From the NCBI RefSeq assembly GCF_009707545.1, contig NZ_WLYK01000005.1, positions 558,001-622,000 of the forward strand: DNA of 64,000 nt, read 5' to 3'. Below, in pieces: positions 11,450-29,732 of the stretch (its first letter is position 1; each line of letters begins with the position of its first letter). The notes beneath the pieces are model-generated. The model had not been told where the DNA came from, did not search any database, and worked only from the letters and a program-made list of their open reading frames with translations. The DNA comes from Nakamurella alba. Its GTDB lineage: Bacteria > Actinomycetota > Actinomycetes > Mycobacteriales > Nakamurellaceae. The position numbers and the translations under genes are program-made.

Positions 11450-11619
11450 GCCGGGGATGCTCGCAGCCGTGTCCGGACGGCGGCAATGTGCAAGGTGTCA
11501 GGATCCGGACCCCGCTCACTACAACCTGTCAGGCCGCTCACGAAGCAAACATCAGCTCACACCGCCGTATACGCTGGTCACGACACCGATCAGCAACTGA
11601 GCAGGCAGGAGAGCGTCGG

Positions 11620-12918
11620 GTGGTGAATGCGCGCTCACGCACGGCCGGGTCGGCACCTGCCCGCGCGGAGTCCGCGAGCACCCGTCGCGACGAGATCCTC
11701 GAGGCTGCTTCGGCTCTCTTCGCCGGCTCCGGCTTCTCGGCCACCTCGCTCAAGGATGTGGCCGATGCCTGCGGGATCCTGCCGGGCAGCCTGTACCACC
11801 ACTTCGAGTCCAAGGAAGCGATCGTCGTCGAGCTGCTCGACCGGTTCCACGACGACCAGGAGCGGATCGGGACCACTGCCCTCGGCCGCCTCGCGAAGGG
11901 CGAGGACCGTTCGACGCAGGACCAGCTGCGGCTCTTGGCGGTCGAGGCCGCGGCGAACTCGGTGCGGCACCGGGCGGCGATGACCCTGCTCTTCCACGAC
12001 CCGCCGCAGCGGTCCGGCGAGCGCCTGCAGCAGACGCTGCGGCGGCCGGACGGCGCCCTGGAGGACGCCTACCGCGCGGTGTTGGAGCAGGCCCGCGCGG
12101 ACGGGCTGCTCCGCCCGGAGATCGAACCGGAACTGCTCGCCGACCAGCTGCGCGAGGCCATGCTGCACACCAGCCTGACCGTGTTCTACGGCGACACCCC
12201 GCCCTCCGCTGTGGCCGACACGGTCATCCACGTCCTGCTGCACGGCATCGCCCGGGGCCCCGTCGCCGACGCCGACCTGGACGGGTCCGCGGCGATGGAG
12301 GTGGCCGTCGCAGCGGTCCGGTCCTGGGACGAGGCCGACGCCGAACCTGTTGCGGACGACCGGGTCTCGGCGCTGCTCCGGGTGGCGCGGACCGAGTTCG
12401 CGCGCCGCGGGTACGAGGGGACGACCGTCCGGCACATCGCCGCCGCGGCCGGGATCGGCACCGGCACGGTCTTCCGGCTGACCGGCTCGAAGGAGGCCAT
12501 GCTCGACTGGATCATGGCGGCCTTCCAGACGCGGATCACCGAGGGGTACGAGAAGGTGCTGGCCACCGACGCGCCGGCCGCCGCCAAGCTGGACGCGCTC
12601 GCCTGGTTCAACCTGCACGTGCGGAACCGGTTCGACGAGGAGTTCAGCATCCAGCGGTCCTGGCTGCGGCTGCGGCCGCCGCACCACACCGAGCACGGCA
12701 AATCGCTGCGGGAACGAGCCGACGCGGTGGGCCGGATGATCGGCGCCGCGGTGGCCTCCGGCGAGCTGCGCGGGCACGGCCCGGTGGAGGTGTTCGCGCG
12801 CTGCGTCTGGGACCTGCTGTGGCTCCCGCCGGACATGTACGACCGCTACGGACCGGACCGTAGTCAACGCCACTACCGCGGCACGGTGCTCCGCGGAGCC
12901 CTCGTCCACCCGGCCTGA
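11620..12918 (+). CDS. Fused double-TetR transcriptional regulator (first)
   Basis: I place the start at GTG 11620, six bases after AGGAGAG, giving 432 residues. Residues about 22-70 form a TetR DNA-binding domain (RDEILEAASALFAGSGFSATSLKDVADACGILPG then SLYHHFESKEAI). A TetR ligand-domain-like helical region follows. Residues about 247-295 form a second HTH (VARTEFARRGYEGTTVRHIAA, then TGTVFRLTGSKEAM) with its own helical C-terminus. Two complete TetR units are thus joined head to tail; TetR proteins usually have one and dimerise. A paralogue with the same build lies at 15422-16687. Both lie amid the four copies of the 17-bp palindrome and are the best candidates to bind it. Confidence 0.88.
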   Translation: MVNARSRTAGSAPARAESASTRRDEILEAASALFAGSGFSATSLKDVADACGILPGSLYHHFESKEAIVVELLDRFHDDQERIGTTALGRLAKGEDRSTQDQLRLLAVEAAANSVRHRAAMTLLFHDPPQRSGERLQQTLRRPDGALEDAYRAVLEQARADGLLRPEIEPELLADQLREAMLHTSLTVFYGDTPPSAVADTVIHVLLHGIARGPVADADLDGSAAMEVAVAAVRSWDEADAEPVADDRVSALLRVARTEFARRGYEGTTVRHIAAAAGIGTGTVFRLTGSKEAMLDWIMAAFQTRITEGYEKVLATDAPAAAKLDALAWFNLHVRNRFDEEFSIQRSWLRLRPPHHTEHGKSLRERADAVGRMIGAAVASGELRGHGPVEVFARCVWDLLWLPPDMYDRYGPDRSQRHYRGTVLRGALVHPA

Positions 12919-12958
12919 CCAGCGGTTCCACCGCAACGGACACGGCGGGACGAACTTC

Positions 12959-12987
12959 TTGCGTGCTCCGGATCACACTGCTACTGT
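12959..12987 (+). promoter_or_regulatory. Promoter for MFS gene 13270
   Basis: TTGCGT (12959-12964), a 17-bp spacer and TACTGT (12982-12987) make a plausible housekeeping-type promoter. The regulon palindrome begins at the very next base, over the expected transcription start. The leader to the GTG at 13270 is long, about 270 bases, with no convincing small ORF or riboswitch-like fold that I could recognise. Confidence 0.6.
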
Positions 12988-13004
12988 GAGCAAAGATTTG
13001 GTTC
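12988..13004. promoter_or_regulatory. Regulon palindrome, copy A
   Basis: GAGCAAAGATTTGGTTC, a 17-bp imperfect palindrome of the form GAnCnAA-n3-TTnGnTC, immediately downstream of a -10 box. A repressor bound here would block RNA polymerase. Copies B, C and D are at 16763, 20866 and 25288. Confidence 0.75.
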
Positions 13005-13269
13005 AGAAGGTGCCCGGCCACGCCGCTGACGGACACGGATCGGCCAGATCCAGCCAGATCCACCAGTACTCCGAGTGCCCCGATCCCTTCCCCGTCCGCC
13101 CGTGGTGGACCCCACCGAGCACGCCAGGGACCGGGCCGGCAACACAGGTGCCGTCGCGATCCGACGGCAGCACGACCCGTCCTGTCCCCGCGACAGCGCC
13201 GGGAATCCCGCAGGTCCCGCAACGCGGCGGGCCGGATCGTCCGCCGCCTCTTCGTCGAAGGACTTTCGA

Positions 13270-14838
13270 GTGGACTCACATCTCCCGGCGCCGAGCGTCG
13301 GCACATCCGAGAAGCAGGGCTGGACAGCGCGGATGGTCCTCACGACCATCTTCCTGGCCATGGTGCTCGAGGCGGTCGCCCTCGGCGCGGCCACCGTCGC
13401 GATCGCCCTGCCCAGCATCCTCAAGGTCTTCCCGACCACCCAGGGCGGCTGGCTGCTGTCCGCCTACTTCCTGGCCGGCGCGGTCGCCGCGCCACTGCTC
13501 GGCAAGTGCGCCGACCTGTACGGCAAGAAGAAGGTTCTCGTCATCACCATGGCGATCTCGGGAGCCGGCGCCGTCCTCTGCGCGATCGCGCCGACCTTCC
13601 TGGTGCTGCTGATCGGCCGCGCCCTGCAGGGCGTCGTGCTGGCCACGCTCGCCCTCACCTACTCGCTGCTGCGGGACATCTTCCCGCCCAAGCCCGCCGC
13701 CTTCGCGGCCAGCGCCACGGTCACCGGCATGGGCATCTTCGGCCTGGCCACCCCGCTTGCCGTCGGCTGGCTGCTGGCGAGTTTCGGCTTCCGGGGCCTG
13801 TTCTGGTTCGACGCGATCTGGACGATCGGCCTGTGCGTGCTGATCGCCTTCGTCTCGCCGGAGTCGGCGCTGCGCCGCAAGTCCCGGCCGGACGTGCTGG
13901 GCGCCGTGCTGCTGAGTATCGGGGTACTGGCCGTCCTGCTCTACGTCAGCCTCGGCCGCACCGTCGGATGGGCGTCGGGCACCGGACTCGCCCTGCTGCT
14001 CGGCGGGCTCGTCGTGCTCGCGGTGTTCTTCACCCACGCCCGGCGGGCGGCCGACCCGATCGTCAACCTGTCGCTGTTCACCCGGCGTCCGGTGGTGCTG
14101 GTGACCGTGTTCGGCGCGGTCGGCTATGCGCTCTCCGCGACCATCGGCCAGGTCATCCCGCTGCTGGCGATGACACCCCGGGAAGCCGGCGTCACCTACG
14201 GCCTCGGGCTGACCACGGTGGAGTACGCCGCGATCGAGACACCCAGGGCCCTGGCCTCTGTCGTCGTCGGCCTGCTGCTCGGCATGCTGGTCGCCCGCGG
14301 CCGCTCACCCCGGGTGTTCATGGTGCTGGGCATGGCCTGCTGGCCGCTCGCCGCGCTGTCGTTGACCTTCTTCAACACCACCGAGGTCGCGCTGATCGGC
14401 GGCGCCATCCTGGCCGGTCTCGGCGGCGGCATGGTCAACGCCTCGCTGCCGAACGTCGTCATGCAGGCGACACCGGCCGCGGACCAGGGCTCGGTGGCCG
14501 GTACGGTGCAGCTGTGCCAGACCGGGCTCGGCGCGGTCGCGCCGATCCTGATGTTCACCGTCATGGCGCCGTACGCGAATGTCACCGCGACCGGCGGCGT
14601 CATCTACGGCGAGACCGGCTTCCAGGTCTACCTTCTCGGGACCGTGGTGGTCGCCGCGATCCTGCTGGTGCTGGTCGCGACGGTGCTCCGGCCGAAGCCG
14701 ACCGACATCGTGCACAACAAGGTCGCCCCGGAGCCGGTCGGGGCGATGGCCTCCGCGGTGCCCGCCGAAGCGGTGCTGCCGGTGCAGGCCGCTCCGGTGA
14801 TCGACCGGCCGTTGGCCGGCGAGGCCTCCGGACGCTGA
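13270..14838 (+). CDS. MFS transporter, DHA2 (EmrB/QacA-like) family
   Basis: I place the start at GTG 13270, seven bases after AAGGA. The 65 in-frame codons upstream are Pro/Arg-rich and unlike a transporter. The product has 522 residues with about 14 hydrophobic segments, GKCADLYGKKKVLV (the loop 2-3 MFS motif A) and LLIGRALQGVVLA (motif B region). DHA2 proteins export drugs or move organic acids by proton coupling. In this setting, under the shared operator, substrate import or efflux of a toxic intermediate is likely. The gene at 14904 follows 65 bases later. Confidence 0.9.
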   Translation: MDSHLPAPSVGTSEKQGWTARMVLTTIFLAMVLEAVALGAATVAIALPSILKVFPTTQGGWLLSAYFLAGAVAAPLLGKCADLYGKKKVLVITMAISGAGAVLCAIAPTFLVLLIGRALQGVVLATLALTYSLLRDIFPPKPAAFAASATVTGMGIFGLATPLAVGWLLASFGFRGLFWFDAIWTIGLCVLIAFVSPESALRRKSRPDVLGAVLLSIGVLAVLLYVSLGRTVGWASGTGLALLLGGLVVLAVFFTHARRAADPIVNLSLFTRRPVVLVTVFGAVGYALSATIGQVIPLLAMTPREAGVTYGLGLTTVEYAAIETPRALASVVVGLLLGMLVARGRSPRVFMVLGMACWPLAALSLTFFNTTEVALIGGAILAGLGGGMVNASLPNVVMQATPAADQGSVAGTVQLCQTGLGAVAPILMFTVMAPYANVTATGGVIYGETGFQVYLLGTVVVAAILLVLVATVLRPKPTDIVHNKVAPEPVGAMASAVPAEAVLPVQAAPVIDRPLAGEASGR

Positions 14839-14903
14839 CGGTTCGCGCGGTGGCGGGACCCCTGACCGGGTCCCCCCACCGCTGTGTGGGAAAGGATGCG
14901 GCA

Positions 14904-15347
14904 GTGCCAACAGCGGTGGTACGGATCAGGGTGGGCGAGGTCGACCGGGAGCTGTGGTCGGCCGGCCTCGCGCAGCTGCGGGAGATCGGTCTCGACGTCC
15001 TCCCACCGCCCGACGACGGCCGGACTCCCGACGAGATCGCCTTTCTCGAAGAAGATCTCGGAACTGATCGGACCGCCGGTGACTACCAGGAGTGGTGCCG
15101 GGCGGTGTTCGACCGGCCGGTGGAGATCGGGATCGTGACCTATGTCAGCCGCGGGACCGATGACGATGCGCTTGCGGTGCTGGACAGATTCGGTGTGCAG
15201 GGCCAGGTCCTGCGGGAACACAACGGCGAGGACGAGATCGTCCTCGTCACGCTGCACCGGCACGACGGTCGGCGGGTGCCGGAGAGCCGGCTGCACACCG
15301 CCCTGGAAGCCGCGCTGAACGCCGAGGTCCGGATCCGCACGGCGTGA
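14904..15347 (+). CDS. Conserved-looking hypothetical protein, 147 residues
   Basis: Start GTG 14904 lies seven bases after AAAGGA. The sequence is acidic, soluble and without a signal peptide or cysteine-rich motif. It has two similar beta-rich halves (VVRIRVGEVDRELWSAGL and VTYVSRGTDDDALAVLDRF; later EDEIVLVTLHRHDG), which could be a small ferredoxin-like or stress-type fold. I do not recognise the family. It is probably cotranscribed with the MFS gene and convergent with the second double-TetR gene. Confidence 0.65.
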   Translation: MPTAVVRIRVGEVDRELWSAGLAQLREIGLDVLPPPDDGRTPDEIAFLEEDLGTDRTAGDYQEWCRAVFDRPVEIGIVTYVSRGTDDDALAVLDRFGVQGQVLREHNGEDEIVLVTLHRHDGRRVPESRLHTALEAALNAEVRIRTA

Positions 15348-15421
15348 GCGCGGGCACGACCGGCACATCGCCGACATGCCCGGCAGGCACAGCGATCCGG
15401 CGGAGCACCGGATTGATCACC

Positions 15422-16687
15422 TCAGACCAGGAACCCACGCAGCAGCGAGTTGCGCAGGAACTGGTGCGTTCGGGTCACCCCTGCCCGGGCGTAGTCCTGG
15501 TACGGGGTCCACAGGATGTAGCGGATCTGCGCGGCGTAGGACCCGGGGTCGCCGAGCGACCGCAGCTCGCCGGCCCGCACGCCTCCGGCGATCAGGTCTT
15601 CGAGAAGAACCAAACGACTGCGGGTCTCGGCGTGGTAGTCGGCGAGTGGCATGATCACCGGCTCGCGGTCGAAGGAGCCGAACTTCACGATGTCGGACTC
15701 CAGCCGGAAGCGGCGCTTGGCCTTGACGAAGATCAACGCCAACGCGTCCAGCTTGGCGGCGACCGAGTCGTCGGTGCCGAGCACGCTGCGCACCGCCCGG
15801 TCGAGCTGCCCGCCGTAGTCCAGCAGGATCTCGGCCAGCACCTCCTCCTTGGAGCTGATCCGCCGGTACAGCGTGCCCATCCGGACACCCGCGGCCTCGG
15901 CGATGTCCCGCACCGTCGTGGCCTGGTACCCACGCCGGGCGAACTCGCCGCGGGCGGCGATGACGATGTCGTCCCGTCCGGAGGTGCCACCGGACACCGG
16001 CGGCGACTGCCAACCGGCCGTCCCCTCCTGCGCCGCCCGCATCGCCACGGAGGCGTTCAGCGAGCGGTCATCGGGGGCTTCGATCGCCACCCCCTGCAGC
16101 AGCATCGAGCAGAGCCGGTCCGCCGCCTCGTCGGCGTCGTGCGGGGTGTCGAAGACGTTGAGGGCGGCGTTGAGCGTCAGCTGCTGCAGTGCGAACCGCA
16201 GCAGACCCACGTCCTGCCGCGGCGTGTCCGGCGTCGGCACCAGGTCGTCGACCGCTCGCTTCCACAGCTTCTGCAGTGCCGGCGCGTTGAGATGCACTGC
16301 GGAGCGGAACTTCTCGGTGGCGACGGTGGGGGCCGCGTAGGAGTACAGCCGGAGCGCGGCGCCACTGCGCAGGGACAGTGCGGTGATCTGCCGGGCCACC
16401 TCCCGCAGCTGGTCCTCCGGGGTGTCGGTGCCGAGCCGACCGCTGACCTCGCCGATCAGTCGGGTGAGGTCCTGGTCGAGTCCGGCGAGGATCCCGACTG
16501 CGATCTCTTCCTTGGACTCGAAGTGGTGGTAGAGGCTGCCGGGCAGCAGACCGACCGCGCTCGCGATGTCGCTCATGGTGGTGGCCGAGTAGCCGGACTG
16601 CTCGAACAGCTGCGCGGCGACCTGCCGGATCTCCTCGGTCCGGCTGTTCGCCGCGGGCGCGTCCACGCCCCCGTTCGCTGCCCTCAT
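15422..16687 (-). CDS. Fused double-TetR transcriptional regulator (second)
   Basis: I chose ATG 16687 (421 residues), because longer in-frame starts would run into the palindrome at 16763-16779. Residues about 17-62 carry the first HTH (AAQLFEQSGYSATTMSDIAS, then PGSLYHHFESKEEIAV). Residues about 234-280 carry the second (ARGEFARRGYQATTVRDIAEA, then GTLYRRISSKEEVLAE). Each is followed by a helical ligand-type domain. The two halves align with the two halves of the regulator at 11620-12918, so the fusion predates the duplication. The operator lies 75 bases upstream, between this gene and the divergent PucR gene, which suggests autoregulation. Confidence 0.88.
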   Translation of the reverse strand: MRAANGGVDAPAANSRTEEIRQVAAQLFEQSGYSATTMSDIASAVGLLPGSLYHHFESKEEIAVGILAGLDQDLTRLIGEVSGRLGTDTPEDQLREVARQITALSLRSGAALRLYSYAAPTVATEKFRSAVHLNAPALQKLWKRAVDDLVPTPDTPRQDVGLLRFALQQLTLNAALNVFDTPHDADEAADRLCSMLLQGVAIEAPDDRSLNASVAMRAAQEGTAGWQSPPVSGGTSGRDDIVIAARGEFARRGYQATTVRDIAEAAGVRMGTLYRRISSKEEVLAEILLDYGGQLDRAVRSVLGTDDSVAAKLDALALIFVKAKRRFRLESDIVKFGSFDREPVIMPLADYHAETRSRLVLLEDLIAGGVRAGELRSLGDPGSYAAQIRYILWTPYQDYARAGVTRTHQFLRNSLLRGFLV

Positions 16688-16762
16688 CGGAGCAGTATCC
16701 ACGCCCGTTCTGTCGATCGAAGTGATCGCGGAGCGGAGACCCCGGCCCGAAACCAGGAGTGA

Positions 16763-16779
16763 GAGCAATTATTTGGTTC
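16763..16779. promoter_or_regulatory. Regulon palindrome, copy B
   Basis: GAGCAATTATTTGGTTC, matching the consensus at both half sites. It lies almost exactly midway between the start of the second double-TetR gene (16687) and the PucR-type gene (16856), so one bound protein could control both divergent promoters. I could not assign a convincing -35/-10 pair in either direction. Confidence 0.72.
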
Positions 16780-16855
16780 GCAGCGCTTCCTTTCTGCCCG
16801 TTGACCGGGCAATACTGGAGATCGAGGACAACGGCGTCGAGTGGAAGGAGCAGTG

Positions 16856-18466
16856 ATGGCGACACCGGCACGCACTGCGACCCCGCCCGCGGCGCCCCGT
16901 CCACGGACCGTGCCGGGCCGGTTGACCGTCGCCGGCGTGCTGGCGCTGCCGGCCGCGGCCGCGGGTCGGCCGATGGTGCTCGCCGGGCGGGCGGGTCTCT
17001 CTGCGCCCGTCCGCTGGCTGCACGTCAGCGAGCTCACCGACGTCGAGGGCTTGTTCCACGGCGGGGAGCTGGTGCTGACCACCGGGCTGGCGCTGCCGGA
17101 CGATCCGGGGCAGTGCCGGGCGTACGTGGATGCGCTCGCGAAGCAGCGGGTGGTCGGGCTCGTGCTCGAACTCGGCCGCCGGCTCTCCCGGGCACCGGAC
17201 GCACTCGTCGCCGCGTGCGCGCGGGCGGTGCTGCCGCTGATCGTCATCCGGCGCGAGGTGCCGTTCGTCGATCTGGTGGAGGCGGCCCAGCGGGTGCTGC
17301 TGGACGAGCGCACGGCCGTCGAGCAGGCTGTCGCCGACGCCCGGGAACGGTTCACCGCACTCTGCCTGGCCGAGGCGTCCGTCGACGAGATCGTCTCCGC
17401 TGCTGCGGCTCTCACCGGCGGACAGGTGGTGTTCGCCGATCCGCGCCGCCGGGTGCTGGCGCTGGATGCGGACAACGGGCCGGTGGAGCTGCTGCTCGCC
17501 CGGTGGCGCCGGCGATCGGGTTCCGCCCCGGTGGACGATCGGACGACGGTCGACCCGCACACCGGCACCGTGGCGACCCCGGTGGTGGTGCGCGGCCGGA
17601 TACGCGGACAACTGCTGCTGTTCGCGGCGAGCCCGGGGCCGGCCGATGAGGAGATCCTGGAGCAGGCCGCCGCGGCGCTGACCCTCCGACTGCTCGCCGG
17701 CCGCGACGACGGTCCGGTGACCACCGCCCGGACCGCGGTGCTGGCGGACCTGCTGTCCGGTGATGTGCGTGCCACCTCGGTCGCCGTGGCCCGGGCCGCC
17801 GCCCTCGGGGTGGAACTGCGGGACCGCCGGTTCGTGCCGGTGCTGGTCGACGGGATCGGTGCCGACCCCACCGACCGCATCCACCAAGCGGCGCAGCGCT
17901 CCGGGCTCGACGTGCTGGTCGGGCCGCAGTCGGCGGCCCGGTGGGTGGTGCTGGTACTGCTCCGGCGGGACCAGGACGAGTCCGGGATCGATGTCCTGGC
18001 CGCAACTCTCCACGGGAGACGCAATGCCCGGGAGCTGGTGATCGCGGCGGGTACGGCCACCGCCGACCTCGGTGACCTGCCCGCCGCCCTCGCCGAGGCC
18101 ACCGACGTCGCGGACGCGGTCCGGCTCGGTCCACCGGGCCCGCCGCGGTGCCACCGGGTCGATGACCTCCGACTGCGCGGGGTGCTGACGCTGCTGCGTG
18201 ACGAGCCACGGCTGCGCGCCTTCGCCGCCCGCAGCCTCGGCCCGCTGCTGCAACGGGACGCCCGGGACGGCGGTGACCTGGTCGCCACCCTCGCCGGCTA
18301 CCTGGACGTCCGTGGCAACAAGGCGAGAGCGGCTCGCCTGCTGGGTATCTCGCGGCCGACGCTGTACGAGCGGCTGGCCCGGATCACCCGACTGCTCCGC
18401 GTCGACGTCGAGGATCCGGAGACCATGACCTCGTTGCACGCCGCGATCATGCTCGCCGGTCGCTGA
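16856..18466 (+). CDS. PucR-family transcriptional activator
   Basis: Start ATG 16856 follows GGAAGGAG by five bases; 536 residues. The N-terminal part (residues about 20-150: LTVAGVLALP, then GRAGLSAPVRWLHVSELTDVEGLFHGGELVLTTGLAL) is a PucR sensor domain. The C-terminus (about 475-536: LVATLAGYLDVRGNKARAARL, then GISRPTLYERLARI) is the PucR-type helix-turn-helix. Family members sense purines, amino acids or aromatic acids and activate nearby catabolic genes. It directly precedes the hydrolase/MFS pair. It probably adds substrate-dependent activation to TetR-type repression. Confidence 0.9.
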   Translation: MATPARTATPPAAPRPRTVPGRLTVAGVLALPAAAAGRPMVLAGRAGLSAPVRWLHVSELTDVEGLFHGGELVLTTGLALPDDPGQCRAYVDALAKQRVVGLVLELGRRLSRAPDALVAACARAVLPLIVIRREVPFVDLVEAAQRVLLDERTAVEQAVADARERFTALCLAEASVDEIVSAAAALTGGQVVFADPRRRVLALDADNGPVELLLARWRRRSGSAPVDDRTTVDPHTGTVATPVVVRGRIRGQLLLFAASPGPADEEILEQAAAALTLRLLAGRDDGPVTTARTAVLADLLSGDVRATSVAVARAAALGVELRDRRFVPVLVDGIGADPTDRIHQAAQRSGLDVLVGPQSAARWVVLVLLRRDQDESGIDVLAATLHGRRNARELVIAAGTATADLGDLPAALAEATDVADAVRLGPPGPPRCHRVDDLRLRGVLTLLRDEPRLRAFAARSLGPLLQRDARDGGDLVATLAGYLDVRGNKARAARLLGISRPTLYERLARITRLLRVDVEDPETMTSLHAAIMLAGR

Positions 18467-18529
18467 CCGGCTCCCTGACACGGCCGTCCCCGCCGGGACG
18501 GCGCCCCACCCTACGAGAGGCAGCACAGC

Positions 18530-19426
18530 ATGTCCCAGATCGAGATCAACGGCGGCATCGTCGAGTACGAACTGCTCGGACCGCCGGACGGCGGTCGGAC
18601 GTTGACCATCACCCCCGGCGGCCGGTTCAGCAAGGACTACCGCGGCGTCCGGCCGTTCGCGCAGGCGCTCGCCGAGGCCGGCCACCGGGTGCTGATCTGG
18701 GACCGGCCGAACACCGGCGCCTCCGACATCCAGCTGTACGGCGAGTCCGAGTCCCACATGCGCGCAGCCACTCTCGCCGGCATGGTCCGCGCCCTCGACC
18801 TCGGGCCGGTGGTGGTGATGGGTGGATCCGGCGGCGCGCGCGACTCCATCGTCTTCACCATCACCTACCCCGAGCTGGTGGAGCAGCTGATCGTCTGGTC
18901 GATCGTCGGCGGCGCGTTCAGCTCGATGAGCCTGGCCGGCGTTTATGTGATGAACGAGATCCGCACCGTCCGCCGCAAGGGCATCGACGGCATCCTGGCG
19001 CAGACCGGACCGGCCGGAAGTTGGTCCGACCTGGTCGCCGCCAACCCGCGGAACAAGCAGCGGCTGGTGGACCTGGGCGCCGAGGAGTTCGAGAAGGTGA
19101 TGTGGCGCTGGTTCGAGGCCTATGTCCCCAAGGCCAACGAGGCCATCCCCGGCGTGCCGGACCACCTCATGCGATCCATCACCGTGCCCACGCTGATCGT
19201 GCGCGGAGGCGAGAACGACATCGACCACCCCAAGCGGACGTCGTTCGAGGTGCACGCGCTGATCCGCCGATCGAGGCTGATCGACCCGCCGTGGCCGGAG
19301 GACGCCTGGGAGCGGGGACAGGCCGCCCGGGACGCCGGCACCGGCGGCATCTTCGACCCGTGGATGGACGCGGTGCCGACCTTCCTCGACTTCATCGCCG
19401 AGTACTCCGTGCGGGTGCCGGCTTGA
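18530..19426 (+). CDS. Alpha/beta-fold hydrolase
   Basis: A 298-residue cytosolic protein. The nucleophile elbow is GGSGGAR with Ser100; DRPNTGASD (about 58-66) is the usual loop near the oxyanion region. VPTLIVRGGENDIDHP (about 222-237) supplies the acid residue. Beyond it, where a catalytic His is normally found, the sequence reads IDPPWPEDAW with no His, which is odd. A His could come from elsewhere (HP in NDIDHP or EVHALIRR), or the activity may be unusual. Related proteins in catabolic clusters cleave C-C bonds of ring-opened diketones or esters. It shares a TTGA overlap with the MFS gene. Confidence 0.85.
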   Translation: MSQIEINGGIVEYELLGPPDGGRTLTITPGGRFSKDYRGVRPFAQALAEAGHRVLIWDRPNTGASDIQLYGESESHMRAATLAGMVRALDLGPVVVMGGSGGARDSIVFTITYPELVEQLIVWSIVGGAFSSMSLAGVYVMNEIRTVRRKGIDGILAQTGPAGSWSDLVAANPRNKQRLVDLGAEEFEKVMWRWFEAYVPKANEAIPGVPDHLMRSITVPTLIVRGGENDIDHPKRTSFEVHALIRRSRLIDPPWPEDAWERGQAARDAGTGGIFDPWMDAVPTFLDFIAEYSVRVPA

Positions 19427-20874
19427 CCTCGACCGCCGCCCACCCGGTCGCCGAGGCGATCGGGACCGACCGGCCGGCCCGGGGTATCCTGGCCGTGCTG
19501 GTGGTCATCTCGGTGGTGTCGGCGCTGCAGAGTTCCGTGGTGGTGCCGCTGATCTCGCACATCCCCGAGGTGTTCTCGGTCAGTGCGGCGACGGCCTCGT
19601 GGATCGTCACCGCGACCACCCTGGGCGCCTCGGTGGCAGCGCCGATCATCTCGCGGATGGCCGACCTCTACGGCAAGCGACTGATCGTCGTCTGCACCCT
19701 GCTGGTCACCGCGCTGGGCTCGCTGCTGGTCGCGGTGAGCGACGTCTTCGCGATCGCGGTGACCGGCCGCGCGCTGCAGGGCACCGCGATGGCGCTGATA
19801 CCGGTGTCCATGTCCATCGTGAAGGAGGTGCTGCCCGGCCCGAAGATCGGCAGCGGGATCGCTTTACTGGGTGGCACTCTCGGTCTCGGCACCGCGCTCG
19901 GACTGCCGGTGGCCGGCCTGCTGTACCGGTGGTGGGGCTGGCACGCGCTGTTCTGGGTGACGGTGGTGATCGCACCGCTGCTGGCCCTGGCCGCCCAGCT
20001 GGTCCTGCCCGGCCGGAGCGTGCAGCAGCGCACCGGGTTCGACGTGCTGGGCAGTGTGCTGTTCACCGTCGCCCTGGTGCCGTTCCTGCTCGCCTTGTCC
20101 CAGGGCAACGACTGGGGCTGGGCCGGTCCGGCGGTCCTCGGGCTGTTCGGTGCCGCCGTGGTCGCCGGCGGATTGTGGCTGTGGTGGGAGCGCCGGGCAC
20201 CGGATCCGTTGGTGGACATCGACATCGCTGCCGGCCGAACCGTGATGCTGACGAACCTCTCGTCCCTACTGCTGGCCGGCGGCATGTTCGCCAACATGTA
20301 CCTGGCCTCCCAGCAGCTGGCGAACCCGGCCTCGGTGCCGGGCGGTCTCGGACTGCCATCGGAGACCGTCGGACTGCTGATGATCGCGCCGGCCATGATG
20401 ATCATCGTGCTGTCACCGGTGATCGGGCCGGCGTTGCACCGGTTCGGCGGCCGGACCGTGCTGGTGGCGGCCGCGCTGGCGATGGCGGCGGCCTACCTGG
20501 CGCGGATCTGGCTGTCCGGATCACCCACCGCGGTGGTCGTCGGTGCGGTCCTGGTCGGCATCGGCATCTCCTTCGGTCTGTCGGCCCAGCCGATGATCGT
20601 CATGGCGGCCGTGCCGGCCGACCGGACGGCGTCGGCGAACGGGCTGAACCAGCTGTTCCGCACTGTCGGCACCTCCGCCTCGGTGGCCGCGGTCGCCGTG
20701 CTGACCTCGGCGACCTCGCTGACCACGACCACCGGCGAGTACGCCACCGGCTCCACTTTCCGGCTCGCCTTCATCGGGCTGGCCGCATTGATGGCGCTGG
20801 GCGCGTTGCTGGCCTTCCTGGTTCCCGGAACCGCTGGTCGGACTGGTGTTGCGGAATCGTCAGCGGAGCAATAG
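19423..20874 (+). CDS. MFS transporter, DHA2-like (second)
   Basis: The most likely start is TTG 19423, overlapping the hydrolase stop (TTGA), which gives 483 residues; a strong ribosome binding site is lacking, so coupling to the hydrolase is likely. About 14 membrane segments are visible, with RMADLYGKRLIVV (motif A) and AVTGRALQGTAMALIPVSMSI. It is related to the transporter at 13270 but diverged. It is probably the uptake or efflux system for the same pathway. Its last codons and stop form part of regulon palindrome C. Confidence 0.87.
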   Translation: MTSTAAHPVAEAIGTDRPARGILAVLVVISVVSALQSSVVVPLISHIPEVFSVSAATASWIVTATTLGASVAAPIISRMADLYGKRLIVVCTLLVTALGSLLVAVSDVFAIAVTGRALQGTAMALIPVSMSIVKEVLPGPKIGSGIALLGGTLGLGTALGLPVAGLLYRWWGWHALFWVTVVIAPLLALAAQLVLPGRSVQQRTGFDVLGSVLFTVALVPFLLALSQGNDWGWAGPAVLGLFGAAVVAGGLWLWWERRAPDPLVDIDIAAGRTVMLTNLSSLLLAGGMFANMYLASQQLANPASVPGGLGLPSETVGLLMIAPAMMIIVLSPVIGPALHRFGGRTVLVAAALAMAAAYLARIWLSGSPTAVVVGAVLVGIGISFGLSAQPMIVMAAVPADRTASANGLNQLFRTVGTSASVAAVAVLTSATSLTTTTGEYATGSTFRLAFIGLAALMALGALLAFLVPGTAGRTGVAESSAEQ

Positions 20875-20882
20875 TTTGGTCC
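20866..20882. promoter_or_regulatory. Regulon palindrome, copy C
   Basis: GAGCAATAGTTTGGTCC. It includes the stop codon of the second MFS gene and lies 58 bases before the amidohydrolase start at 20941. TTGCGG (20850-20855) is a possible -35 whose -10 would fall inside the palindrome. Confidence 0.7.
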
Positions 20883-20940
20883 GTAGCAGCTCGCCGCCGT
20901 CCCTCCCGGACCCGCCGTCCGTCACGAATCGAGCCCAGTC

Positions 20941-22020
20941 ATGAGCACAACAGTCCCCGCGTCGCCCCGGGTGGACGCCAGTGTCCACATCTTCTTCCGG
21001 TCCGACGCCGAACTCCGGCAGTACCTCGGCGAGCCGTGGGCCAGCCGCGGATTCCCGACGCCGGACACCTCCTTCACCGCGCCGCTGGGCGGCCGGTACA
21101 CCCCGGGATCACGGCCGGACCCGGCGTCGCACCCCGGGTCCGATCCGGAGCAGGTCGGCGGGATCGTCTTCGAACAGCAGGGTTTCGACCTCGCCGTGCT
21201 CCACCCGATGACCGTCGGGGTGCTGCCGGACTGGCACCTGGAGTCGGCGATCCTGGAGGCGACGAACCGGATGCTGGTGGAGCGCTGGCTGGACTCCGGC
21301 AGCTACGCCGATCGCTTCTTCGGCACCATCCGGGTCAACCCGAACGACATCGACGCCGCGGTGAAGGAGATCCGGCGCTGGACCGGCCACCCGCGGATCG
21401 TGCAGATCGGCCTGCCGATGCAGACGCAGGCCCCCTACGGCCGGCCGCACTACCGGCCGCTGTGGCGGGCGGCGGTCGATGCCGGGCTGCCGGTGGCGAT
21501 CCACTGGGAGATGGGCCAGGGCATCACCCACCCGCCGACGCCGAACGGCACCGCCCGCACCTATCAGCAGCTCGTCGGGTTCCAGCCGCTCACCTTCGTG
21601 TTCCACCTGATGAACATGATCGCGGAGGGCGTGTTCGAGGAGTTCCCGGACCTGAAGGTGGTCTTCGCCGACGGCGCCGCCGACATGCTCACCCCGATGA
21701 TCTGGCGGATGGACACCTTCGGCCGGCCGCACCTCGAGCAGACGCCGTGGTCACCGCGGATGCCGAGCGACTACCTCGCCGGTCACGTGTACTTCGTCAA
21801 CGGGATGCTCGACGGGCCCGGCGATGTCGACTACGCCTCCGAGTGGCTCCGGATGACCGGCAAGGAGGACATGCTGATGTTCGGATCCAGTTACCCGGAC
21901 TGGCAGTTCGCCACCACCGAGGCGCTGCCGTCCGGCTGGACCGGCGAGCAGCGCGCGAAGGTGCTGGGCGCCAACGCCGCTGATCTCTACCGCCTGCCCG
22001 TGCCCTCGCCCGTCGGCTGA
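20941..22020 (+). CDS. Amidohydrolase-2 family protein (ACMSD-like), first
   Basis: A 359-residue metal-dependent TIM-barrel protein of the ACMSD/amidohydrolase-2 family. The first-strand motif is DASVHIFF rather than the usual H-x-H. Later family features are VAIHWEMGQG (metal His on strand 5), FVFHLMNMIAEGVFEEFPDLKVVFADG and MLMFGSSYPDW (the terminal Asp). Members decarboxylate or hydrolyse aromatic and semialdehyde acids; the exact reaction here is unknown. It starts an operon with 22064, 23212, 23613 and 24902. The altered metal motif makes this the more doubtful enzyme of the pair. Confidence 0.87.
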   Translation: MSTTVPASPRVDASVHIFFRSDAELRQYLGEPWASRGFPTPDTSFTAPLGGRYTPGSRPDPASHPGSDPEQVGGIVFEQQGFDLAVLHPMTVGVLPDWHLESAILEATNRMLVERWLDSGSYADRFFGTIRVNPNDIDAAVKEIRRWTGHPRIVQIGLPMQTQAPYGRPHYRPLWRAAVDAGLPVAIHWEMGQGITHPPTPNGTARTYQQLVGFQPLTFVFHLMNMIAEGVFEEFPDLKVVFADGAADMLTPMIWRMDTFGRPHLEQTPWSPRMPSDYLAGHVYFVNGMLDGPGDVDYASEWLRMTGKEDMLMFGSSYPDWQFATTEALPSGWTGEQRAKVLGANAADLYRLPVPSPVG

Positions 22021-22063
22021 GCCGCCGCCCGCCGCAGCCGCCCCCAGAATCCAGGAGCCTGAC

Positions 22064-23212
22064 ATGACCCAGACCGACACCCGCGACGTCACCGCCGGGG
22101 CGATGACCCCGGTGCGTGTCGTCGACTGCGACGTGCACCCCTATGCCCGCAAGGGAGTGCTGCACCAGTACCTCGACCCGAAGTTCGTCCGCGAGCAGCG
22201 ACTGCGCGCCGACGGCGCGAACAACGGGATCTTCTACGATGCACCCGATTTCAACTTCGCGCAGGCGATGCGGGTGGATGCGTTCCCCGGCGACGGCGAG
22301 TTCGCCTGCTCCGACCCGGACATGGCGTTCCGCCAGCTGGTGCTGGACTCCGGGTCGGACGTGGTGATCCTCGGGCCGACCTCGGGCGGTGCCGGCGACA
22401 CCGACGAAGAGGTGACCGCGATGGCAGCGGCCACCAACCTGTGGCAGGACGAGCACTGGCTGGACCGCGAGAACAACTGGCACGGCCGGTTCTTCGGTTC
22501 GATCTGCGCCAACATCACCGAGCCGGCGCAGGCCGCCCGGGAGATCGAGAAGTGGGCCGGGCACCCGAAGTTCAAGCAGATCCTGATCCACGCCGAGCCG
22601 CGGCCGGCCTGGGGCCACCCGATGTACGACCCGGTGTGGGCGGCGGCGGTGAAACACGACATCCCGGTGTCCTGCCACCTCGGCCGCGGCAAGCACAACC
22701 TGCTGCCGATGAGCCCGGTCGGTTTCCTGTCCTACAACCACGACTTCATGGTCACGTACTCGATGCTTGCCGCGAACCAGATCATGAGCCTGATCTTCGA
22801 CGGGGTGTTCGAGCGGTTCCCGACGCTGAAGATCGTGCTGATCGAGCACGCCTTCAGCTGGATCCTGCCGCTGATGTGGCGGATGGACGCGATCCACGCG
22901 GCCCGCGGCAACGAGACCGGGCTGTCCAAGGAGCCCTCGCAGTACGTCAAGGACAACATCTGGCTGACCACCCAGCCGCTGGACTACCCGGAGGACAAGC
23001 TCGAGCTGACCCACGCGTTGGAGTGGATGGAGGCGGACAAGATCCTGCTCTTCTCCTCCGACTACCCGCACTGGACATTCGACGAACCCCGTTGGCTGGC
23101 CAAACATCTCCCCGAGCCGATGCGGGACGCCGTGATGTTCCGCAACGGCATCGACCTGTTCAAGCTGCCGTCCGAACTGCCGGCGCTGGCCGGGCAGGTC
23201 CGGGCCTACTGA
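22064..23212 (+). CDS. Amidohydrolase-2 family protein (ACMSD-like), second
   Basis: Start ATG 22064 after AGGAG; 382 residues. VVDCDVHPYARKG holds the D-x-H first-strand metal motif, PVSCHLGRGKH supplies the next His, and LLFSSDYPHWTFDEP the final Asp with a nearby His. It shares family and layout with the preceding gene (both have the NMIAEGVFEEFP or IMSLIFDGVFERFP helix), so the two may form a heteromer or act one after the other. In known clusters such proteins catalyse decarboxylation or hydrolytic ring opening. Its stop overlaps the Rieske start (TGATG). Confidence 0.88.
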   Translation: MTQTDTRDVTAGAMTPVRVVDCDVHPYARKGVLHQYLDPKFVREQRLRADGANNGIFYDAPDFNFAQAMRVDAFPGDGEFACSDPDMAFRQLVLDSGSDVVILGPTSGGAGDTDEEVTAMAAATNLWQDEHWLDRENNWHGRFFGSICANITEPAQAAREIEKWAGHPKFKQILIHAEPRPAWGHPMYDPVWAAAVKHDIPVSCHLGRGKHNLLPMSPVGFLSYNHDFMVTYSMLAANQIMSLIFDGVFERFPTLKIVLIEHAFSWILPLMWRMDAIHAARGNETGLSKEPSQYVKDNIWLTTQPLDYPEDKLELTHALEWMEADKILLFSSDYPHWTFDEPRWLAKHLPEPMRDAVMFRNGIDLFKLPSELPALAGQVRAY

Positions 23213-23616
23213 TGGCGCCCGAGACCGGCGCGGCGCCGGGTCCGCCCACCCTGGCCCGCGGCCGCGAGCACGTCGTCGCGCGGGTGGAGGACATCCCGCC
23301 GGGGGAGCACAAGGTGGTGCCGATCGGCCGGTACGGCGTGGGCGTCTACAACGTCCGCGGCACCTTCTACGCCATCGCCAACTACTGCCCGCACGAGGGT
23401 GGCCCGCTCTGCGTCGGCCGGACCAAGGGGCAGACCGTCGCCGACCCGGAGAAGCCGGGCGGTGCGCGCGAGGTGCGGCCCGGCGAGTTCGTCTACTGTC
23501 CCTGGCACCAATGGGGTTTCGAGCTGGCCACCGGCACCACCACGGTCAAGCCGGAGTGGAGCATCCGCACCTACCCGGTGCGCGTCCACGACGGCCAGGT
23601 CCTGGTGACGGCATGA
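23212..23616 (+). CDS. Rieske [2Fe-2S] ferredoxin-like protein
   Basis: Start ATG 23212 overlaps the amidohydrolase stop in TGATG; 134 residues. The Rieske motifs are CPHEGG and CPWHQWGF, i.e. C-x-H and C-x2-H with a 38-residue insert, longer than in most Rieske ferredoxins; the insert holds a TVADPEKPGGAREV segment. There is no catalytic iron domain, so this is an electron carrier or a small oxygenase component. The next gene encodes a NuoF-like flavoprotein, its likely partner. Confidence 0.9.
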   Translation: MAPETGAAPGPPTLARGREHVVARVEDIPPGEHKVVPIGRYGVGVYNVRGTFYAIANYCPHEGGPLCVGRTKGQTVADPEKPGGAREVRPGEFVYCPWHQWGFELATGTTTVKPEWSIRTYPVRVHDGQVLVTA

Positions 23617-24902
23617 GCACCCTGGCCTCCCGCGCGCTGCCGGTGCGCACCGGGGCGGTCGGGGTCGAGCCCCGGCTGCTGACCGTCGACGAGCGGGAGT
23701 CGGTCGACGACTACCTCGCCGGCGGTGGCTACCGGCCGCTGCGCAACCCGGAACGCCTGCTGGAGCAGGTGGCCGCCGCCGGGGTGCGCGGACGCGGCGG
23801 TGCCGCCTTCCCGATCGCCCGCAAGATGGTCACGGTGCGCAGCGGCTCCAGCGCCCCGGTGCTGGTCGCGAACGGCGAGGAGGGCGAGCCGGCGTCGGTG
23901 AAGGACAAGTGGCTGCTGCGGTTCCGGCCACACCTGGTGTTGGACGGGCTCCGGCTGGCCGCCGCGATGACGGGTGCGCAGCAGGCCTACATGTACGTCT
24001 CCGACCCGGTCTCCGCGGACAGTGTCGAACAGGCGCTGACCGAGTTCCCGGCCGAGGGCTGGAACGAGATCGACATCGCCGTGCACCGCGTCGCCCCGAC
24101 CTACGTCGCCGGCGAGGAGACGGCCGCGGTGCGGTCGATCGGCGGCGGACCGGCGCTGCCCCAGGACAAGCCGCCGCGGCCGTTCGAGGTCGGCGTGCAC
24201 GGCCGGCCGACCCAGATCAGCAATGTCGAAACCCTGGCGCATCTGCCGGTGGTCCAACGGCTCGGTGCCGACGGCTACCGGGCGGCCGGGACCGCCGACT
24301 CGTCCGGGACCTTCCTGATGACCCTCACCGGGGTGGAGCACCCACAGCTGCTGGAGGTGCCGTTCGGTATCAGCTTGCGCGAGATCCTCGTCGCTGTCGG
24401 TCATTCCGGCGATCTCCGGGGTGCCCTGATGGGTGGCTACTTCGCCGGGCTGCTGTCCGGCCGGGTGCTCGACCTGCCGCTGGATCACGGCACGATCGCC
24501 GGGGCCGGCAGCGGCCTGGGCTGCGGGGCGGTCGCGGTGCTCGACGCCGGCACCTGCCCGGTCGGCGTGGCCGCCGGGGTACTGAGCTACTTCGCCCGGG
24601 AGAACGCCGGCCAGTGCGGGTCGTGCTTCAACGGCACCGCCGCGATGGCGGCTGTGCTCGACGCGCTGTGCACGGGCGAGGCCACCGGCGCGGATGTGCA
24701 GCGGCTGCAGCGCTGGTCGACGGTGCTGCGCGGCCGCGGTGCCTGCGGCACCCTCGACGGCGCCACGAACATCGCCGCCACCGTGCTGCGCGAGTTCCCG
24801 GCCGAGATCGAGGAGCACTTGGAGAGTCGTTGCAGCAGTTGCCCTCCGCCAGCCGTGCGTCGCCGGCCCCCTTACGCCGTGCTCACCGAAGGAGGTGCCT
24901 GA
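23613..24902 (+). CDS. NuoF-like NADH-binding flavoprotein, free-standing
   Basis: Start ATG 23613 in an ATGA overlap; 429 residues. The complex I 51-kDa fold is clear: GRGGAAFPIARKM (FMN site, about 60-72), ANGEEGEPASVKDKW (NADH site, about 86-100), AGEETAAVRSIGGGPALPQDKPPRPF. The cluster region reads ENAGQCGSCFNG where NuoF has E-S-C-G-x-C-x-x-C-R-x-G, so the first cysteine is Ala; the distant cysteine (GRGACGT) remains. Two more cysteines occur in the tail (RCSSCPPP). No NuoE or NuoG is nearby. Inference: it oxidises NADH and feeds the adjacent ferredoxins and thereby the Rieske oxygenase. Confidence 0.87.
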   Translation: MSTLASRALPVRTGAVGVEPRLLTVDERESVDDYLAGGGYRPLRNPERLLEQVAAAGVRGRGGAAFPIARKMVTVRSGSSAPVLVANGEEGEPASVKDKWLLRFRPHLVLDGLRLAAAMTGAQQAYMYVSDPVSADSVEQALTEFPAEGWNEIDIAVHRVAPTYVAGEETAAVRSIGGGPALPQDKPPRPFEVGVHGRPTQISNVETLAHLPVVQRLGADGYRAAGTADSSGTFLMTLTGVEHPQLLEVPFGISLREILVAVGHSGDLRGALMGGYFAGLLSGRVLDLPLDHGTIAGAGSGLGCGAVAVLDAGTCPVGVAAGVLSYFARENAGQCGSCFNGTAAMAAVLDALCTGEATGADVQRLQRWSTVLRGRGACGTLDGATNIAATVLREFPAEIEEHLESRCSSCPPPAVRRRPPYAVLTEGGA

Positions 24903-25252
24903 TGCGGATCAAACTGGACCGGACGGTGTGTGACGGGTTCGGGACGTGCGTCGTGCACGCGCCGGACGTGTTCAGCCTCGACGACTGGGGCTACCCGTCG
25001 CTGGCCGCCGGCAACGACATCGCCGCGGCCGACGAGGCCGGCGTGCGCCGCGCCCTGCTCGACTGTCCGGCCCATGCCATCGTCGACCTCGGTGACCCGG
25101 TGCCGATGCCGGCCGGCGGTGAGCCGGGTATGGCGCGCAATCTCGGACCGGATGCGCCCTGGACCAAAGCGGCGAACGGTGCCGCTGCGTTGCCCCGGCT
25201 GGGGTCGGTGCTGGTCAGGGACCCGACGGCGGATACCGACGATGACTCGTGA
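24902..25252 (+). CDS. [3Fe-4S]-type ferredoxin with C-terminal extension
   Basis: Start ATG 24902 overlaps the preceding stop in TGATG; 116 residues. Cluster motif C-x5-C (CDGFGTC) followed by D-C-P (LLDCPAHAI), the one-cluster pattern of oxygenase ferredoxins. About 50 extra residues follow the fold (PMPAGGEPGMARNLGPDAPW onward), a tail not found in the 67-residue ferredoxin at 9119. The tail may dock onto the flavoprotein. It is the last gene of the 20941-25252 operon. Confidence 0.88.
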   Translation: MRIKLDRTVCDGFGTCVVHAPDVFSLDDWGYPSLAAGNDIAAADEAGVRRALLDCPAHAIVDLGDPVPMPAGGEPGMARNLGPDAPWTKAANGAAALPRLGSVLVRDPTADTDDDS

Positions 25253-25256
25253 AGTC

Positions 25257-25285
25257 TTGCAGGGTGGGGTGACCGGGGCTACAGT
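25257..25285 (+). promoter_or_regulatory. Promoter for Rieske oxygenase operon
   Basis: TTGCAG (25257-25262), a 17-bp spacer and TACAGT (25280-25285), two bases before palindrome D. The layout is nearly the same as at 12959-13004. The leader to the ATG at 25415 is about 120 bases. Confidence 0.62.
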
Positions 25286-25287
25286 GT

Positions 25288-25304
25288 GAGCAAATCTTAG
25301 GTTT
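25288..25304. promoter_or_regulatory. Regulon palindrome, copy D
   Basis: GAGCAAATCTTAGGTTT. The left half is perfect and the right half departs at two positions. Its place just after the -10 box matches copy A. Confidence 0.7.
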
Positions 25305-25414
25305 GCAGAAGCACAACTCCCCGCCGCAGCAACCCCGCCGCAGTACCCGGTCCGGTCCCGCCGACAGGACCGGGACCGGGATCATCCGCCCACCGCCAGG
25401 AAAGAGGATCAACG

Positions 25415-27113: not shown

Positions 27114-27479
27114 ATGCCGAAGGTGAGGGTGCTGCCGGCCGGGGTCGACCTGGAAGTGCGCGAGGGCGAAGCGGTCGCCGAGGCCGCCTGGCGGCAGGGG
27201 TACGTCTGGCCGACGCAGTGCTGGGGCCAGGCGGACTGCATGAGCTGCTTCACCCGGATCGTCGACGGGGAGCTGTGCGCCGTGCCCGCGGAGGAGCTGG
27301 AGCTGGACGCGGTGCGGCTGAAGATGGCCGGCCGGATGCGGAACGACCCGCTGATCCGGCTGGCGTGCCAGTTGCGTTGCCGGGGCGAGGGTCTCGTCCT
27401 GGAGAAGAAGGGTTTCCGCCCGGCGGAGGAACGCGACCACAACATGGCCGGGGAACCGGTCGAATCAGGAAGAGCGTGA
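27114..27479 (+). CDS. Plant-type [2Fe-2S] ferredoxin
   Basis: Start ATG 27114 after GGAAGGGGAG; 121 residues. Cluster ligands Cys36, Cys42, Cys45 (CWGQADCMSC) and Cys85 (RLACQL), the C-x5-C-x2-C-xn-C pattern. The 30-residue tail beyond the fold is charged. It is the likely direct electron donor of the Rieske oxygenase two genes upstream. No FNR-type reductase is encoded nearby; candidates are the NuoF-like protein (23613) or the FAD reductase (7945). Confidence 0.9.
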   Translation: MPKVRVLPAGVDLEVREGEAVAEAAWRQGYVWPTQCWGQADCMSCFTRIVDGELCAVPAEELELDAVRLKMAGRMRNDPLIRLACQLRCRGEGLVLEKKGFRPAEERDHNMAGEPVESGRA

Positions 27480-29494: not shown

Positions 29495-29732
29495 CCGCGT
29501 CGCGCTGTCCATCCCCAAGGTCTCCATGGGCACCGAGGAGGCCACCTTCGTCGACTGGATCGTCGGCGACGGTGATCCGGTGAGCGTGGGCGACCCGATC
29601 TACAGCGTGGAGACCGAGAAGGTCGAGACCGAGGTGGAGGCGGCGGCGTCCGGGGTGCTCCGGCACGGCGACGTCGAGGCCGACGAGACCTACCCGGTGG
29701 GCACCGAGGTCGGCTGGATCGAGACGTCATGA
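29487..29732 (+). CDS. Free-standing lipoyl (biotinyl/lipoyl) domain protein
   Basis: Start GTG 29487 within the E1 beta end; 81 residues, exactly one lipoyl domain. The lipoylated lysine is Lys45 in VETEKVETEV, between the two beta hairpins. Normally this domain is fused to a peripheral subunit-binding domain and an E2 acyltransferase. Here it ends after GTEVGWIETS and the next gene begins in an ATGA overlap. It may work as a small carrier, like GcvH, passing the group to an E2 encoded elsewhere. Confidence 0.88.
   Translation: MSDRVALSIPKVSMGTEEATFVDWIVGDGDPVSVGDPIYSVETEKVETEVEAAASGVLRHGDVEADETYPVGTEVGWIETS

Follow-up and report, generated by a model that had tools for sequence, protein, structure and literature searches.

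Organization of the island and its repeated site

The stretch of Nakamurella alba analyzed here (contig NZ_WLYK01000005.1, positions 558,001 to 622,000; hereafter, the window, 64,000 nucleotides) carries a gene island in which one 17-bp site recurs. In gene order, it has first an aldehyde dehydrogenase (ALDH) gene on the reverse strand and a forward-strand gene for a regulator with two TetR units in one chain (double-TetR 1, TetR2_1). Site A and the transporter gene MFS1 follow on the forward strand, and then a second double-TetR gene (TetR2_2) on the reverse strand. Beyond it, all genes are on the forward strand: pucR, an alpha/beta hydrolase gene and MFS2 after site B; the amidohydrolase-like genes AmH1 and AmH2 with NuoF-like and ferredoxin genes after site C; and, after site D, a Rieske oxygenase, a 2Fe-2S ferredoxin, the alpha and beta subunits of a 2-oxoacid dehydrogenase E1, a 3-ketosteroid-dehydrogenase-like FAD protein and an alcohol dehydrogenase. 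Judging from sequence comparison and structure prediction, we put the probability at about 0.8 that a double-TetR (double-TFR) repressor, TetR2_2 being the likeliest one, uses the sites as operators, from which it would block the promoters of the island. An earlier note on this DNA, made from the sequence alone, had proposed a TetR-type regulon; that interpretation is supported and is modified here in its symmetry register, its directionality, the addition of a fifth site with ALDH as a probable member, and the likely nature of the amidohydrolase operon.

All four sites stand letter for letter where the earlier note placed them, and the copies depart from GAGCAANNNTTTGGTTC by 0, 0, 1, and 2 mismatches. 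Six places in the window match this string at up to three mismatches, against a shuffle mean of 1.14. In the whole genome (6.05 Mb, 29 contigs), GAGCAAnnnTTTGGTTC at up to two mismatches occurs at exactly four places, all of them in the island, versus two places for a reversed-pattern control; hits scattered over the genome, named earlier as a refuting result, were looked for in this way and not found. The statement that the site occurs nowhere else in the window holds at up to two mismatches, but a weaker fifth site lies on the reverse strand between ALDH and TetR2_1. The imperfect palindrome GAnCnAA-n3-TTnGnTC then used to describe the sites is present in full in copy A and with one mismatch in copy B, but copies C and D fail it at up to one mismatch, and window places 4623 and 6488 also match it with one mismatch.

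Unseeded motif discovery and the fifth site

Expectation-maximization was run on 20 regions upstream of AmH1, Rieske, ALDH, and hydrolase orthologs, with the window excluded and 500 random starts per width. With 17 columns the search settled on GAGCAAATGTTTGGTTC, and with 20 columns on this motif in its reverse-complement form; a site of this kind was placed in 15 of the 20 regions. The five regions without a site belong to AmH1 of L085 and to the hydrolases of L056, L083, L084, and L086; AmH1 of L085 and the hydrolases of L083, L084, and L086 sit behind another island gene on the same strand. When the window was scanned with the 17-column matrix, the four reported sites took ranks 1 to 4 (26.1, 24.4, 21.6, and 18.6 bits), the reverse-strand place at 11542-11558 came fifth with 16.5 bits, and the next match reached 10.8. 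The 20-column matrix put the same five on top (14.8 for the fifth versus 12.0 for the sixth).

Reverse-strand readings of the same sites aside, 11542-11558 was the best place in the window after the four with three matrices. By score alone it is modest: 14.4 with a seeded matrix that is not independent, its 12 training sites having been found with the window consensus (2 of 40 simulated 64-kb sequences exceeded this value), and 16.4 with the matrix of the 15 unseeded sites, for which 2 Mb of simulated DNA holds two places of at least 15. Position adds weight, since the edge of the fifth site is 93 bases away from the start of ALDH, and in Kribbella the corresponding distance between site and ALDH gene is 94. 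These sequence comparisons suggest that ALDH probably joins the regulon. As for the single regulon claimed earlier (two MFS genes, pucR, the amidohydrolase/NuoF operon, and the Rieske/E1 operon), it is supported apart from this addition and from the place of MFS2: copy C overlaps the MFS2 stop codon (the open reading frame [ORF] ends at 20874) and so precedes the amidohydrolase operon, while MFS2 belongs to the gene run that starts at copy B.

Conservation in related islands

Conservation before orthologous operons, which had also been named as a check, was found in related actinobacterial islands. Three of these were located through their Rieske or AmH1 genes, namely G629 (L057/L058; its Rieske protein is 78% identical to that of the window), an Arthrobacter metagenome-assembled genome (G678, L050), and Kribbella (G679, L056/L063). 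Four more were fetched on account of a double-TetR gene: G049 (L083), G057 (L084), G040 (L086), and G016 (L085), the last from the window's own genus. Across the seven, sites precede AmH1, Rieske, MFS1, ALDH, E1, hydrolase, or a ferredoxin-reductase unit or lie at the double-TetR gap, not all of these in each island. In 14 pairwise comparisons over seven gene sets, orthologous sites were identical at 185 of 238 positions (78%) and their 60-bp flanks at 487 of 1680 (29%); the pairs were picked by the motif, which favors the value for the sites, and the flank value shows that the surrounding DNA has diverged. Since the motif is kept ahead of these genes even in distant bacteria, the island has the look of a genuine co-regulated unit. 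In Kribbella, the gap between TetR2_2 and pucR (L063:15262-15302) contains two tandem putative operators, 24 bp apart, scoring 16.5 and 22.7 bits.

AmH1 was found at an expectation (E) value of 1e-90 in one of 249 genomes of the family of G629, G629 itself. Among 396 genomes of the phylum, TetR2_2 was found at E 1e-70 in two (G000 and G629) and the Rieske protein at E 1e-60 in four. The two distant ones of these four Rieske loci (L048 and L049) had no site at up to three mismatches. In a plasmid collection, TetR2_2 had no match at E 1e-30 and the AmH1 matches were all below 60% identity, on which grounds plasmid carriage of the island was rejected. The site search leaves out the second reading, on the reverse strand, of one L050 site, a match inside a gene of L058, the duplicates L046/L047, one L064 match, and L051-L055 with their 13 weak matches at three mismatches.

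Promoter-like elements at the sites

The hexamer pairs reported before copies A and D, TTGCGT/TACTGT and TTGCAG/TACAGT, are present as written, with 17-bp spacers. A layout of this kind (TTG-N3, N16-18, TA-N3-T, ending 0 to 5 bp before the site) precedes 7 of 25 sites, including both MFS1 and all five Rieske promoters, compared with a shuffle mean of 0.033 and no shuffle out of 2000 reaching seven; the pattern was drawn up after the upstream letters had been seen, and a single genus (G040, G049, and G057) supplies three of the five Rieske promoters. At AmH1 a second geometry appears, with a TTGC element ending 11 bp before the site in three of seven cases, so the -10 element would fall inside the operator. 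Both geometries fit steric repression.

Anatomy of the proposed operator

Seven positions (A2, C4, A5, A6, T11, G13, and T15) are invariant in all 16 sites of TetR2_2-type islands, with the spacing of the operator of KstR2. An axis between bases 8 and 9 relates A2 to T15, C4 to G13, and A6 to T11; it is a better one than the axis of the earlier note, from which it is half a base away. The two registers are nearly equal over all complementary pairs (0.57 versus 0.52), so the axis rests on the invariant columns. The available text of PMC3068626 gives the KstR2 operator as the palindrome AnCAAGnnCTTGnT. Both operators contain the core AnCAA....TTGnT with the same letters and spacing, and the 16 sites meet on average 7.69 of the eight outer KstR2 core positions. 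Unlike in that palindrome, the central G (position 7) appears in one of the 16 sites and the central C (position 10) in none, the center here being mostly A/T.

The site is also directional. By inspection of the listed sites, GARCAA is upstream in 17 of 17 that precede a single downstream gene, a count that leaves out eight sites in divergent or unclear gaps and the sites of L088-L092. The gap site L050:7159 scores slightly higher in the opposite orientation (15.2 versus 14.0), and L092:3520 points against its neighbor gene. Position 3 is G in 13 of the 16 TetR2_2-type sites and A in all 19 distinct sites of other double-TetR loci (the tandem copy L063:15262, L087 with 14.1 bits, and L091:10494 with 14.6 bits are left out of these column counts); all four window sites have G. 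On the protein side, the N-terminal recognition helix GSLYHHF is invariant in the 18 aligned double-TetRs (of 21 such ORFs, leaving out L062, L075, and L081), and the C-terminal helix varies by type. This pattern suggests that the C-terminal helix-turn-helix (HTH) reads the GARCAA half. We tentatively extend this to a broader proposal, which we consider possible rather than probable: actinobacterial single-chain TetR repressors may descend from KstR2-like ancestors, the unchanging N-terminal HTH having kept the right half (TTnGnT) and the variable C-terminal one reading GARCAA and setting position 3 (G or A); the fusion would have made a symmetric operator directional, and the same code would serve a wide double-TetR clade on different catabolic islands.

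Predicted structure and known relatives

Each of the two regulators in the window has two TetR_N stretches in one chain. The AlphaFold2 model of TetR2_2 (18-row alignment; pLDDT 86.8, pTM 0.86) found as its first Foldseek match Mce3R bound to DNA (PDB 9b7y; E 3.7e-9, TM 0.67/0.72, 20% identity) and KstR2 as its second. The chain is predicted to fold as an asymmetric pseudo-dimer, and its two recognition helices are not identical (PGSLYHHF versus RMGTLYRR). The N-terminal one reads GLLPGSLYHHF in TetR2_2, GILPGSLYHHF in TetR2_1, and GILSGSLYHHF in KstR2.

Mce3R of Mycobacterium tuberculosis is described in the available text of PMC11667970 as a one-chain asymmetric TetR protein on an asymmetric operator, with a lipid/catabolic regulon and autoregulation; its authors presented it in 2024 as the first double-TFR repressor with a known structure. 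The same text describes its operator regions as about 25 bp long, non-palindromic, and distinct from those of KstR2. TetR2_2 resembles it in having two TetR units per chain with non-identical HTHs and, on the reading proposed here, in its asymmetric operator, its lipid/catabolic regulon, and its autoregulation; Mce3R is the best full-length structural match to the model. They differ in that identity is about 20% over the structural match, the recognition residues are not the same, and the operator here is quasi-palindromic and KstR2-like; an Mce3R ortholog was rejected on these grounds, as far as the available description of the Mce3R operator goes. KstR2 (PDB 4w1u and 4w97; PMC3068626, in its available parts) shares a nearly identical N-terminal helix but has one TetR domain and a palindromic operator, whereas the proteins here have two domains and their site, directional, lacks the central G/C, so that KstR2 itself was rejected as well. 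Given the predicted fold and the two domains, TetR2_2 would work like Mce3R, as a double-TFR, on an operator of the KstR2 type.

Which protein probably binds the sites

The matrix built from the 15 unseeded sites was scanned over double-TetR loci and controls. Of the 15 double-TetR places listed outside the own genome, 10 were covered by fetching 20 kb around each, and six of these (L087-L092) had given no training site. Five of the six carry a site of at least 18.5 bits and the sixth (L087) one of 14.1; the sites of L088, L089, and L092 are homologous to one another, so the five cannot be counted as independent. None of 29 loci with PucR homologs (38-43% identical, about 4.6 kb each) reached 13 bits, nor did any of the five Mycobacterium AmH islands (L051-L055), in whose fetched DNA no double-TetR was matched; in 2 Mb of simulated DNA, four places scored at least 13 bits, with a maximum of 17.3. 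The L053 genome has a more distant double-TetR elsewhere, and the L051 genome has none at E 1e-20. In the loci examined, the motif travels with double-TetR genes and not with PucR.

The five Mycobacterium islands share other upstream strings, e.g., GAGCAAACACTTGGCTACTTAGGTTCTTCTCA, which recurs in slightly varied form in four of them and may be another operator. The double-TetR loci L088-L092 (family f7, probably that of Mycolicibacterium rhodesiae) have the same operator class, and the L092 sites adjoin genes for a CbbQ/NorQ-type ATPase, a VWA protein, and a periplasmic binding protein, i.e., a different gene set with a related regulator.

The earlier assignment of the sites to a TetR protein is strengthened by this co-occurrence, by the agreement with the KstR2 operator, and by a predicted fold like that of Mce3R. 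From the computed sites and their conservation, their placement at promoter-like elements that are themselves conserved, the co-occurrence, the two TetR domains, and the predicted fold, we infer binding, repression, operon extents, and an effector as follows. A single polypeptide would act as a pseudo-dimer whose two unlike HTHs bind the quasi-palindrome cGGARCAAnnnTTnGGTTCg, with the core AnCAAnnnnTTGnT. The putative operators overlap the core promoter or directly follow it, so that bound repressor would keep RNA polymerase from the divergent promoter shared by TetR2_2 itself with pucR, hydrolase, and MFS2, from MFS1, from the AmH1/AmH2/NuoF/ferredoxin and Rieske/ferredoxin/E1/FAD operons and, less strongly, from ALDH/TetR2_1. 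The repressor would come off the DNA on binding a catabolic intermediate.

TetR2_2 is the most likely owner of the operators, although the sequence comparisons that assign a double-TetR to each site leave an unlikely but serious competitor, namely that TetR2_1 owns the four sites or shares them. In the own genome, the N-terminal recognition helices of the two double-TetRs are nearly identical (G(I/L)LPGSLYHHF), which counts against a firm assignment, and the double-TetRs of L083, L084, and L086, whose sites have nearly the same consensus, resemble TetR2_1 (44-46%) more than TetR2_2 (about 33%). Against TetR2_1 stand the G at position 3, shared by the window sites with the TetR2_2 type and found in 0 of 19 sites at other loci; the fact that the one double-TetR of G629, G678, and G679 at E 1e-20 is of the TetR2_2 type (51-54% identical); and the adjacency of operator B to TetR2_2.

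Binding by the PucR-family protein (16841-18466), as a substrate-induced activator, is improbable. Its gene adjoins operator B, Kribbella also has a TetR2_2/pucR pair, and TTTGGTT resembles the Bacillus PucR box. However, besides the 29 PucR loci without a site, six of eight motif islands have no PucR match in the fetched DNA (13-36 kb each), Kribbella being the only other island with one, and seven sites lie directly behind a -10-like element, which is unusual for an activator. It is slightly less probable still that the motif serves as a promoter element, or as an RNA element transcribed from a single strand, rather than as a protein operator. The uniform orientation of the 17 single-gene sites would suit such an element, but the bases that never vary are arranged symmetrically around one axis and agree with a published TetR operator, the sites stand in two geometries relative to the promoter-like elements, the mycobacterial site L092:3520 is reversed, and a search of 8000-36000 against Rfam found nothing. 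A chance resemblance, or common ancestry of the DNA around the sites, for which one could cite the homologous genes of the relatives and the lack of enrichment of the pattern in other genomes, is practically negligible given the divergence of the flanks, the exclusivity in the own genome, and the rediscovery of the motif without the window.

Several observations weigh against the double-TetR operator reading. A pattern search of 61 genomes at up to one mismatch gave 11 places outside the own genome versus 10 for the reversed control, so the pattern alone is not enriched there. The relaxed consensus GARCAANNNTTNGNTNC, drawn up after the G629 sites were known, was found without mismatches, among the matches listed (which contain no rows for G679 and G000), in the island for four of four places in G629 and one of two in G678, and the one listed place in G681 is outside any AmH island; with up to one mismatch allowed, it lacks specificity in each of the five genomes (42 hits in G000, 26 for the control). 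Co-occurrence in G049, G057, G040, and G016 arises partly by selection, since these were fetched because a double-TetR was found there, and counts overstate independence because several loci are close relatives. The full-length Foldseek match to Mce3R has a root-mean-square deviation of 7.1. Finally, a generic sigma-70 scan of 11000-26000 found no promoter, by which standard sigma-70 promoters were rejected, though the TTG/TA layout is conserved.

Among the 11 places of the pattern search, three (L005, L006, and L010) lie 5.4-8.9 kb from a separately found double-TetR gene. The other eight (L007-L009 and L011-L015) have no known double-TetR nearby, and the L012 site also matches on the reverse strand at two mismatches.

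Among the matches listed in the open-licence literature, no paper on this regulon or operator appeared, which is weak evidence of novelty; the regulon and operator appear to be new, and the repressor is of a known kind. The operator of Mce3R is complex; a compact, conserved one for a double-TFR clade would allow tests of how a site is shared out between two unequal HTHs. The proposed regulon brings together a Rieske oxygenase, a likely dinuclear oxygenase, and a 2-oxoacid dehydrogenase E1 as parts of a single unexplored degradation pathway; being defined from sequence, it tells what to seek as inducer and substrate.

Genes of the island

Table 1. Features of the island, with positions counted from the first letter of the window
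Feature	Position	Strand	Remarks
Aldehyde dehydrogenase, CoA-acylating methylmalonate-semialdehyde type	9950..11449	-	Pfam Aldedh; NCBIfam TIGR01722 above cut-off
Double-TetR regulator 1 (TetR2_1)	11488..12918	+	Two TetR_N stretches; real start perhaps 11620-11623
Fifth, weaker operator (putative)	11542..11558	-	GAGCTGATGTTTGCTTC; between ALDH (-) and double-TetR 1 (+)
Promoter-like TTGCGT-17-TACTGT	12959..12987	+	Ends directly at operator A
Operator A (putative)	12988..13004	+	GAGCAAAGATTTGGTTC; before MFS1; rank 2 in window with unseeded 17-column matrix; orthologous site before G629 MFS1
MFS transporter 1	13075..14838	+	Pfam MFS_1; real start perhaps GTG 13270
Double-TetR regulator 2 (TetR2_2), proposed operator owner	15422..16768	-	Two TetR_N stretches; real start perhaps ATG 16687
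Operator B (putative)	16763..16779	+	GAGCAATTATTTGGTTC; divergent gap between double-TetR 2 (-) and pucR (+); same position in Kribbella
PucR-family regulator	16841..18466	+	Pfam PucR, HTH_30; probable ATG 16856 preceded by AAGGAG
Alpha/beta hydrolase	18530..19426	+	Pfam matches slightly below curated cut-offs
MFS transporter 2	19021..20874	+	Pfam MFS_1, domain from residue 161; real start downstream of ORF start
Operator C (putative)	20866..20882	+	GAGCAATAGTTTGGTCC; before AmH1; overlaps MFS2 stop codon; orthologous sites in L057, L050, L056
AmH1, PF04909 protein	20941..22020	+	Probable non-catalytic partner of amidohydrolase-related oxygenase
AmH2, PF04909 protein	22064..23212	+	Probable catalytic dinuclear oxygenase subunit
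NuoF-like flavoprotein with Fe-S domain	23511..24902	+	
ORF with 4Fe-4S ferredoxin domain (residues 334-391)	23909..25252	+	Gene likely the 3' part only
Promoter-like TTGCAG-17-TACAGT	25257..25285	+	2 bp before operator D
Operator D (putative)	25288..25304	+	GAGCAAATCTTAGGTTT; before Rieske operon; orthologous sites in L057, L083, L084, L086
Rieske oxygenase alpha subunit	25415..26806	+	
2Fe-2S ferredoxin	27114..27479	+	
2-Oxoacid dehydrogenase E1 alpha and beta	27481..29494	+	
FAD dehydrogenase, 3-ketosteroid dehydrogenase type	29729..31411	+	

The two proteins called amidohydrolases look, from sequence comparison, like a dinuclear oxygenase pair of the AibH1H2 type. Their best PDB matches are 8sm7, 8sm6, 8sm8, and 6m1w (dinuclear oxygenases or candidates, 8sm6-8sm9 and AibH1H2), and the closest, 8sm7, is itself a candidate dinuclear oxygenase according to the available text of PMC10811679. 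AmH2 keeps the DxDxH, H, EH, and SDYPH stretches, typical for metal binding, in alignments, and AmH1 is without several of them, as expected for a partner subunit. Together with the NuoF-like flavoprotein and the ferredoxin, the pair may form a multicomponent oxygenase beside the Rieske oxygenase. As with the AibH1H2-type oxygenases (PMC7782822, PMC10401708, and PMC10811679), flavoprotein and ferredoxin genes lie alongside; the electron donors encoded here are NuoF-like and 4Fe-4S proteins in place of AibF/AibG.

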